From NCBI RefSeq assembly GCF_034119845.1, contig NZ_CP139420.1:2792001-2856000 (forward strand): a DNA stretch of 64,000 nt, in the 5' to 3' direction. The stretch is from Flavobacterium sp. NG2. GTDB taxonomy: Bacteria; Bacteroidota; Bacteroidia; Flavobacteriales; Flavobacteriaceae. Positions 4,869 to 20,152 of the stretch are shown piece by piece. The first letter of the stretch is position 1. Each line of letters begins with the position of its first letter. Below the pieces are notes generated by a model that saw only the letters and a program-made list of their open reading frames with translations, was not told where the DNA came from and made no database searches. Position numbers and translations under genes: made by a program.

Positions 4869-4884
4869 TGTTTACATGTGTTAC

Positions 4885-4920
4885 ACCCGACAGGTTTTAA
4901 AAACCTGTCGGGTGTAACAT
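4885..4920. repeat. REP-like palindrome CCCGACAGG...CCTGTCGGG, left copy
   Basis: The arms ACACCCGACAGGTTTT and AAAACCTGTCGGGTGT form an almost perfect palindrome. A second full copy is at 5891-5924. Single arms are at 4987-5003 and 5036-5047, and a decayed version is at 5671-5703. All surround the RAYT gene at 5062-5655, as expected for palindromes recognised by a linked RAYT. Confidence 0.85.
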
Positions 4921-5061: not shown

Positions 5062-5655
5062 TCAAAACCAATCTATATCATTGAATTCTCCATTTTGACT
5101 ATGAATTGCTTTAAAGTTATCAATATTTTCAAAAAAAGAAATTGTTTTTCCGCGTTGTAATTTTGTTGGTTTATTTGAGATACAAGATAAATAGGAGCTC
5201 CATGGATATTCAATGGGATGTTCGCAAAATCCATGATTGACAGGATTATAATGGATGTATTTTATAATGTTTTGTAAATACTTTTCATTATTAACTTGTT
5301 TCCGTTTAAACGGTCGCTCAAATAAAGCCCCGTGTCTATTAAAACTTTTGTTGATTGATTTTGTATAAGCATTAAATAAATTTCCAAAAGATTGGTGGGG
5401 TGGAATGATTTTTTTTAGTTCAAATGATTCTTGAAGTAGAACCATTTCTTCCAATGATTTAATGCGCACCAATAAATGAAAGTGATTTTTTAATAAACAC
5501 CAAGCGTATGTTTCAGCAATGGGATCAATATGTTTTGCATACAATTGTAAAAAATAATCTTGATTTCTATTTTCTTTAAATAAATTTTCATTGTTGATTC
5601 CTCTATTATAAATATGATAGTACATTCCGAATTCAAGTTTTTCAATTAATTGCAT
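5062..5655 (-). CDS. REP-associated tyrosine transposase (RAYT, Y1 family)
   Basis: A 197-residue single-strand transposase-like protein of the IS200/REP family. It carries the HUH metal motif NHFHLLV (His58, His60), a candidate nucleophile in YIHYNPV (Tyr136), and the family motifs HGALFERPFKRK and YPWSSY. It appears intact. Such proteins nick and join palindromic REP DNA and are usually single-copy rather than true insertion sequences. Palindromes with arms CCCGACAGG flank it on both sides, and both flanks also carry copies of the dnaK tail and terminator. The gene is convergent with dnaK. Confidence 0.9.
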   Translation of the reverse strand: MQLIEKLEFGMYYHIYNRGINNENLFKENRNQDYFLQLYAKHIDPIAETYAWCLLKNHFHLLVRIKSLEEMVLLQESFELKKIIPPHQSFGNLFNAYTKSINKSFNRHGALFERPFKRKQVNNEKYLQNIIKYIHYNPVNHGFCEHPIEYPWSSYLSCISNKPTKLQRGKTISFFENIDNFKAIHSQNGEFNDIDWF

Positions 5656-5850: not shown

Positions 5851-5987
5851 AATTGAGCTAGAAATAGCTCGGTTTTTTATTTACTGGTGTTACACCCGAC
5901 AGGTTTCAAAAACCTGTCGGGTGAACTATTTAGGACTGACACTATTTAAGAATAAAAAAACCGAGCTAAATGGCTCGGTTTTATTTT
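5851..5987. repeat. right copy of the terminator-palindrome-terminator module
   Basis: Contains a terminator-like hairpin GAGCTAGAAATAGCTC with a T run, the full palindrome CCCGACAGG...CCTGTCGGG (5891-5924), ACTATTTAGGACTGAC, and a second hairpin ACCGAGCTAAATGGCTCGGTT with T residues. The order equals 4841-4975 on the other side of the RAYT. The final hairpin could end transcripts of either dnaK readthrough or the convergent helicase gene at 6045. Confidence 0.85.
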
Positions 5988-19225: not shown

Positions 19226-20152
19226 ATGACACTTTTTAATTATAAATATAGAATAGAATCGAACCGATTGAAAAATTGGGATTATTCTAATGAAGGCATT
19301 TATTTTTTAACGCTTGTTTCTCTAAATAGGGAATCCATTTTTGGAGAGATTGTAAATAATGAAATCGTTTTAAATGATTTAGGAAAAATTATTGAGACTG
19401 AAATTCATAATTCGGTTCGGATACGGGATAAATGGATTTTTCATAATTGGGTTATTATGCCCAATCATATTCATTTGTTAATTGAAATAAAAGAGGAGGT
19501 TTTAATTGAAAATTATTTTTTGAATAATACGATAGATGTTGATAAAGAAAAGGATAATGCGGAGAGGCACTGCAGTGCCTCTCTACCTGTCGATGTAAGA
19601 GATCATGATGCTAGAGGGGATTTCGATAATGTAAAGAGGCACTGCAGTGCCTCTCTACCTGAGGGCGAATCGAATGGTGATAGAAAGGAAGAATGTATCT
19701 CTCAACCTGCGGAGGTAAAGGATTGTGATACCGTACAAAATTGTGATAGAGTAGAGAGGCACTGCAGTGCCTCTTTATTTCAGGTGGACGAAAGAAATCG
19801 TGATGTTATAGGTGATTGTGATGGTGTAGAGAGGTACTGCAGTGCCTCTTTACATATAGATGAAACAAATCATATTACTACGGATAAACGTGTGCATTTA
19901 CCAATAATCGAACCAATAAACAGTCCAAAATTTTCCCGAAAACCAAAATCTATCTCCTCTTTCGTCGGTCAATTTAAGTCGGTTACAACCAAAAAAATGA
20001 ATATTCTTAAGGCTACTCATAAAGAAATTATCTGGCAATCGAATTATCATGACCATATAGTGCGTAACTTTGAGTCCTTTCGAACAATTTTTTATTATAT
20101 CAAGAACAATCCTAAAAAATGGGATGAAGATTCTTTGAAAAAAGCCAATTAA
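19226..20152 (+). CDS. RAYT-like transposase with in-frame palindromic repeats
   Basis: A 308-residue Y1-type transposase. The N-terminal half has KYRIESNRLKNWDYS and the HUH motif PNHIHLLIEI (His81, His83). The C-terminal part has SSFVGQFKSVTTKKMN and a candidate catalytic Tyr at 290 or 291 in YYIKNNPKKW. Between them, residues about 110-225 are an insert made of repeats: (E/K)R(H/Y)CSASL at 113-120, 137-144, 177-184 and 202-209, plus a decayed EECISQP at 155-161. Each is encoded by the 20-base palindrome listed separately. The frame stays open, and the M1 peptidase gene starts 10 bases after the stop. Confidence 0.88.
   Translation: MTLFNYKYRIESNRLKNWDYSNEGIYFLTLVSLNRESIFGEIVNNEIVLNDLGKIIETEIHNSVRIRDKWIFHNWVIMPNHIHLLIEIKEEVLIENYFLNNTIDVDKEKDNAERHCSASLPVDVRDHDARGDFDNVKRHCSASLPEGESNGDRKEECISQPAEVKDCDTVQNCDRVERHCSASLFQVDERNRDVIGDCDGVERYCSASLHIDETNHITTDKRVHLPIIEPINSPKFSRKPKSISSFVGQFKSVTTKKMNILKATHKEIIWQSNYHDHIVRNFESFRTIFYYIKNNPKKWDEDSLKKAN
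19563..19849. repeat. four copies of the AGAGGCACTGCAGTGCCTCT palindrome inside the RAYT gene
   Basis: Perfect 20-base palindromes stand at 19563-19582, 19635-19654 and 19755-19774, and a copy with one change (GGTACTG) at 19830-19849. The spacings are 72, 120 and 75 bases, all multiples of three, so every copy is read in the same frame. Bases between them also repeat loosely (GATTGTGATRGNGTAG). I did not see this palindrome elsewhere in the window. Confidence 0.95.

Follow-up and report, generated by a model that had tools for sequence, protein, structure and literature searches.

In-frame REP-like palindromes within a RAYT gene, conserved as nucleic acid more than as peptide across its clade

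We analysed a window of 64 kb (the term denotes the whole stretch of DNA) in which a RAYT (TnpAREP) gene carries REP-like palindromes inside its own reading frame. The features of this gene are presented in Table 1.

Table 1. Features of the RAYT gene and its internal palindromes, with their positions in the window.
Feature	Position	Strand	Basis
RAYT (TnpAREP) gene, subclass 2.4 type	19226..20152	+	ATG start, 308 aa; Y1_Tnp and REP_Tyr_transpos matches, structure match 4er8
HUH motif His81-Ile-His83	19466..19474	+	alignment of relatives
Variable insert, residues ~91-240, predicted unstructured	19496..19945	+	pLDDT
Internal REP-like palindrome 1, exact AGAGGCACTGCAGTGCCTCT	19563..19582	+	pattern scan
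Internal REP-like palindrome 2, exact AGAGGCACTGCAGTGCCTCT; GTAA...CTAC feet at 19631-19658	19635..19654	+	pattern scan
Internal REP-like palindrome 3, exact AGAGGCACTGCAGTGCCTCT; GTAG foot at 19751	19755..19774	+	pattern scan
Internal REP-like palindrome 4, one change C to T; GTAG...TTAC feet at 19826-19853	19830..19849	+	pattern scan
Tyr290/Tyr291, in YYIKNNP	20093..20098	+	alignment; Tyr291 invariant

The 308-amino-acid protein is matched by Pfam Y1_Tnp (E 2.5e-6) and, in two stretches, by the NCBIfam model REP_Tyr_transpos (E 2.3e-17); the 63.3 bits of the latter match lie below the curated cut-off of 80, which is an annotation threshold and no biological feature. Against the IS200/IS605 model (NCBIfam NF033573) the protein scores 21.4 bits, under the cut-off of 55. 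A phmmer search of the PDB sequences gave no match at E values up to 1. The AlphaFold model has a mean pLDDT of 69.8 with a confident core: residues ~91-240 reach only 35-61 per block of ten residues, and all other blocks except three lie at 86-98. Based on this model, the top PDB match is 4er8, the E. coli TnpAREP with a bound REP hairpin (Foldseek E 1.0e-3, TMt 0.65, a modest similarity), and the fold is that of a RAYT, IS200-like with the HUH motif and a tyrosine on the following helix. His81, His83 and Tyr291 show no variation across 36 aligned relatives; we take Tyr291 to be the likely nucleophile, its catalytic role being assigned by homology. An insert-poor relative, L149, comprises 171 amino acids. 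The motifs NHIH, IWQSNY and YYIKNNP correspond to NH[IFV]H, WQ and YIxNNP of subclass 2.4. As judged from its sequence, the protein is a RAYT/TnpAREP whose motifs fit that subclass as tabulated in PMC6006769, and the gene would encode an HUH single-strand DNA endonuclease/transposase of this family and subclass.

The four 20-bp palindromes are located between the HUH and Tyr motifs at spacings of 72, 120 and 75 bases and share one codon phase, in which they are translated three times as RHCSASL and once as RYCSASL. The initial annotation had described this arrangement, with three exact copies and one singly changed copy, the phase kept and His81/His83 and Tyr290/291 on either side, and both the pattern scan (hits at 19563, 19635, 19755 and 19830) and the alignment bear it out; the insert that it described also exists, but is somewhat longer than the ~115 residues given. 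Within the gene, the 20-mers are identical at 19-20 of 20 bases; identity among the linkers of units 2-4 is 25-30 of 44 bases. The 120-base gap between palindromes 2 and 3 and the protein register suggested a decayed fifth copy, which was rejected, the best match (13/28) being at background level. Concerning secondary structure, each palindrome folds as RNA at -14.6 to -17.8 kcal/mol (z -4.4 to -5.4). Folding of the 331-base repeat region as single-stranded DNA is much more stable than that of its shuffles (z -9.8); in the best structure, different copies pair with one another instead of forming four hairpins.

At up to three mismatches, AGAGGCACTGCAGTGCCTCT is not matched anywhere else in the 64-kb window, nor in any of 100 window shuffles. 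The genome-wide count suggested by the initial annotation gave 18 sites at the same setting in the 4.15 Mb genome, 4 in the RAYT gene and 14 elsewhere, and 0 for a control pattern; the gene therefore has the associated genome repeat typical of RAYTs. Twelve of the 14 outside sites were examined in the scanned loci: nine lie in no listed reading frame and three in mechanical frames (69 aa, 82 aa and a 5' extension of a 514-aa frame), which we judged spurious. Flanking REPs, also typical of RAYTs, are absent here, as no cognate palindrome is found within 1 kb on either side of the gene. A complete double-foot REP of the GT[AG]G ... C[TC]AC form that characterises subclass 2.4, GTAGAGAGGCACTGCAGTGCCTCTCTAC, is found in the same genome (L031:2538-2565), and each of the four internal copies has at least one altered foot.

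In-gene REPs are already known, since Quentin et al. 2018 (PMC6006769) describe them as a unique and predominant feature of TnpAREP subclass 2.4, which according to the same text is abundant in Bacteroidetes. What had at first been annotated as the peculiarity of one gene is thus a class-wide trait published in 2018, and the window gene is a further case of a known, little-explored phenomenon; it may already be covered in supplementary figure S10 of that paper. The window gene shares with the subclass the NH[IFV]H, WQ and YIxNNP motifs, a variable insert after the HUH strand and double-foot GTAG REPs in frame between HUH and Y. It differs in having four copies, in the arms GAGG/CCTC where the common form is GACG/CGTC, and in having no cognate palindrome in the 1 kb to either side. 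Compared with the canonical RAYT/REPtron (E. coli TnpAREP, 4ER8), the fold with HUH and a single Tyr is alike and gives the top structural match, whereas the REPs flank the gene there (PMC3733652) and lie inside it here. Short palindromes in frame in proteins are also known as Rickettsia palindromic elements (RPE) and as intragenic GTAG/CGTC REPs (Di Nocera et al. 2013, PMC3733652); those occur in many unrelated genes, notably DNA repair genes, whereas the coding copies in the loci read here concentrate in the RAYT gene.

The distribution of internal palindromes was studied in 160 stretches from genomes of the same genus and in smaller loci, which yielded 215 distinct RAYT-like ORFs. The clade of the window gene comprises 121 of them (at least 90 bits to the clade profile), and the other 94 form the remainder; the 121 include fragments and some genes split over two ORFs and are not a random sample, since they were fetched by likeness to the window protein or to a RAYT profile. 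A strict internal palindrome is present in 96/121 clade ORFs compared with 2/94 of the others: 62 of the 121 contain one copy, 23 two and 11 three or more, while the window gene has its four copies at the relaxed setting. When the relaxed pattern, which admits some chance palindromes, is included, the number rises to 110/121, although two relaxed-only cases (L161 and L125) look unrelated by eye. Eleven of the 121, at least two of which are short fragments, contain neither form. The internal palindrome is therefore not indispensable. Most copies are found directly past the HUH strand (profile states 107-125), but the position varies, and some lie in other loops, e.g. at profile states 62-71 or 159-160. 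The strict density is 1.21 per kb in the 215 RAYT-like ORFs. In the same loci, the other ORFs with a length of 150 aa or more contain 45 strict copies over 1171 kb (0.038 per kb), and the remaining sequence contains 252 over 404 kb (0.62 per kb).

In the named collection, a strict internal palindrome was found in 58/81 RAYT ORFs of the best 80 loci of the scan. The density there is 1.72 per kb; the other ORFs contain 62 copies over 382 kb (0.16 per kb). Among these best 80 loci, the carriers belong to Bacteroidota (20/31), Chloroflexota (9/14), Pseudomonadota (6/7) and, for the others, many phyla. The clade-wide and wider-collection counts together rule out an oddity of a single gene. Two tandem arrangements were also seen: the 361-aa RAYT at L235:4989-6074 (+) contains an in-frame tandem array of a 48-base REP-plus-spacer unit with nine strict palindromes, and in L079 and L099 half-REPs (GTAGAGACGCAC or close to it, plus three bases) run into full palindromes within the RAYT ORF, in L079 in tandem.

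The internal palindrome corresponds to the REP type of the clade itself, as the initial annotation had proposed. In the 62 RAYTs of the large loci which have both an internal and a flanking palindrome, the mean similarity of the two cores is 0.62 vs 0.38 when permuted (the largest of 500 permutations being 0.45), and it is at least 0.85 in 33/62 vs 6.4 permuted. The core type also tracks the RAYT tree: in the 95 rows with a typed core it changes 11 times, as few as 12 labels allow; the tree is a FastTree with many weak branches over 113/121 rows, those with at most 110 filled columns being omitted. Palindromes of the GCAC type are present in 41/41 tabulated genomes with a RAYT of the window's subclade (39/41 when internal copies are excluded; the table covers 41 of 42 typed loci, the absent L110 being a fragment outside the 121) and in 119/398 genomes of the genus, a count that ignores kinship. 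Many of these genomes have dozens of copies, up to 137. The window's subclade is mostly without flanking copies. These results support the view that the palindrome is an REP-like element of this RAYT's own clade, its own REP in its own gene. One genome (G004) contains 58 GCAC-type copies and no RAYT match to either the profile or the window protein; they may be remnants after RAYT loss or have another driver.

Concerning orientation, the asymmetric internal copies of 27 genes of the window's subclade are arranged as FR in 14, RF in three and single copies in five, with one gene each of FRF, FRFR, FRFRFR, FRRFR and FF. The mostly alternating orientation and the dominance of FR pairs resemble REPINs/BIMEs, with the difference that the pair is located here within coding sequence. 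The four copies of the window gene are nearly symmetric and show no orientation order.

Silent-site and rate comparisons were restricted to the ORFs with insert borders found by pattern (102/121), 85 of which have an insert palindrome. Four-fold silent counts take codons palindromic in either row; counting only those palindromic in both rows would favour conservation. Identity at these sites, palindrome vs core, is 129/144 vs 498/620 at 90-100% core identity (disjoint pairs: 12 higher, 3 lower), 188/202 vs 597/1036 at 75-90% (33 disjoint pairs: 28 higher, 3 lower), 122/163 vs 349/857 at 60-75% (24 higher, 5 lower) and 50/89 vs 214/677 at 45-60% (13 higher, 1 lower). By the Nei-Gojobori method, the palindromes of the 28 pairs of 80-90% core identity have pS 0.144 and pN 0.126, the core of the same pairs has dS 0.66 and dN/dS 0.11, and the linkers have dS 0.70 and dN/dS 0.44; in the 15 pairs of 90-100%, the palindrome pS of 0.112 exceeds the pN of 0.071, and the core dS is 0.245. 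Overall, dN/dS is 0.44-0.45 in the linkers and 0.61-0.86 in the palindromes, the latter through low dS, with the reservation that pairs within a lineage are not independent and palindrome codons are few. Based on these class-wise rates, the core is a constrained working enzyme, the linkers are under little constraint, and the silent sites of the palindromes are conserved. The complementarity can also be seen when sites are anchored by the left foot alone: at least 5/6 core pairs are complementary in 111/157 such sites, which contain 22 different cores, vs ~25 when the right halves are re-dealt. A literature search, with subscription papers and preprints outside its scope, listed no paper on nucleic-acid-level conservation of internal REPs.

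RAYTs of the AGGGC type are present in eight genomes, that of G015 being a broken fragment. At no more than one mismatch, the AGGGC 18-mer has a single copy, inside the gene, in six of the eight; G412 has two (inside and just upstream) and G362 none. With a broader 16-mer, palindromic copies were found nowhere but at the RAYT locus in 8/8 genomes; each has an internal one, and G076, G416 and G412 also have variants next to the gene. The two matches elsewhere (G006 and G086) are one-strand, non-palindromic and at control level. The pS of these genes is 0.078 in the palindrome vs 0.311 outside, and the pN is 0.105 vs 0.061 (7 sequences, 21 dependent pairs, ~8 silent sites per pair). The AAGGC lineage (L127, L139, L143, L144, L146 and L148) has two copies ~400 bp apart in 6/6 genomes, one upstream of the gene and one internal, with no other copy found in 2/6; here the pS is 0 inside the palindrome and 0.415 outside. 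The internal share of all copies in the genome is 1/1 in G169 and 2/2 in G036. Gene conversion from a pool does not easily explain the AGGGC and AAGGC cases, and arm-to-arm correction would preserve a palindrome but not its sequence. A recent loss of other copies, or their divergence beyond the patterns, is possible. As a general account, the spread of the target into coding sequence, proposed at first, is doubtful, because the AGGGC lineage gave palindromic copies at the RAYT locus alone.

The element belongs to the REP type of the clade itself, is located mostly in the disordered loop and occurs in most of the fetched members, and it is conserved as nucleic acid more than as peptide. We consider it probable (about two chances in three) that the gene is a functional RAYT with its own REP palindromes in a disordered loop, and that these are retained as a nucleic-acid element and probably act in cis. 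A maintained DNA or RNA element is favoured over a tolerated insertion or a protein linker by the clade-wide presence, the match of the core to tree and flanks, the silent-site rates and the locus-only copies. In the proposed mechanism, the four in-frame copies would sit in the long disordered loop that separates the HUH strand from the following helix. This loop would tolerate any peptide, and the sole reason for keeping the frame would be continued production of the enzyme. The copies would serve as hairpin sites bound by the gene's own protein, with feedback on its expression or activity; alternatively, the internal REP would be a substrate copy that travels with the gene. One of these two cis roles is, we infer, the most likely function. 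More tentatively, and with somewhat less than even confidence, subclass 2.4 RAYTs may be self-contained REPtrons, in which the internal REP is a conserved cis-element, the coding sequence doubles as binding site or substrate of its own product under nucleic-acid-level selection at the protein's expense, and the 'repeat' of some lineages exists only in or beside the transposase gene. The measured DNA-element-like conservation of internal REPs, and lineages with copies found only in or beside the RAYT gene, may be new here. To our knowledge, the long-term maintenance of RAYT genes in bacterial genomes is an open question. With a gene that keeps its presumed own target as DNA in frame, it would be simple to ask whether self-regulation is what REP binding serves, as silent recoding would remove the target and leave the protein unchanged.

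The strongest competitor, which we regard as unlikely although worth serious weight, is turnover: REPs hop into an accommodating loop of a nearby RAYT and persist when they are in frame, and the genomic pool renews them through re-insertion or gene conversion. The tolerance component of this reading is the position taken by Quentin et al. (PMC6006769). The loop is indeed variable and predicted to be unstructured, with lax linkers (dN/dS 0.44-0.45), many genomes hold large pools (the GCAC type with up to 137 copies) from which re-invasion or conversion could keep internal copies alike, and tandem expansions such as the nine strict copies of L235 and the tandem half-REPs occur; the excess of pS over pN in the palindromes of the closest pairs was likewise counted against a maintained element, as were the variable position of the copies and genome G004 with its copies and no RAYT match. 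It fits less well with the frequency in the clade compared with that in other ORFs (45 strict copies over 1171 kb), and with the AGGGC lineage, which has no detected pool and yet a pS of 0.078 in the palindrome vs 0.311 in the rest of the gene.

Less probable still is that hairpins in the coding mRNA slow translation or change the stability of the transposase RNA, protein binding being unnecessary. This suggestion of the initial annotation gains from the strong RNA folding of every palindrome given above, but mismatches away from the palindrome centre comprise 39 G-T vs 78 A-C, that is, no sense-strand G-U bias (a count that ignores kinship), and clade-specific cores matching the flanking REPs are left unexplained, since any hairpin would do. 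Selection of the encoded peptide as a linker or interaction motif, also raised at first, is very improbable: one frame does dominate (153 of 178 even-length relaxed palindromes), but 22 are read in the second stop-free frame (the three in the third are apparently unrelated), the encoded sequence differs among lineages, and the dN/dS of 0.61-0.86 arises through low dS. The linker was rejected on this use of two frames and on silent sites about as conserved as amino-acid-changing ones. Chance or low-complexity repeats are refuted by the 0 matches in both the 100 window shuffles and the genome control pattern.

Two further RAYTs of the same genome were observed. The window contains a second one at 5062-5655 (-), which belongs to another clade (NHFH, YIHYNP); it has no strong palindrome within and long CGACAGGTTT...AAACCTGTCG palindromes on both sides (4879-4919 and 5891-5925), so that the ordinary flanking arrangement occurs in the same window as the RAYT with internal palindromes. 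Another RAYT ORF of the window clade is located at L181:5052-5636 (-) (G000:C1 near 3447700, locus L028), where the match crosses a stop. It contains a different, GTAGGGACAGGTCGCGACCTGTCCGTAC-type palindrome in frame, with a further copy just outside, and adjoins an ORF which by eye resembles the N-terminus of Cas9.
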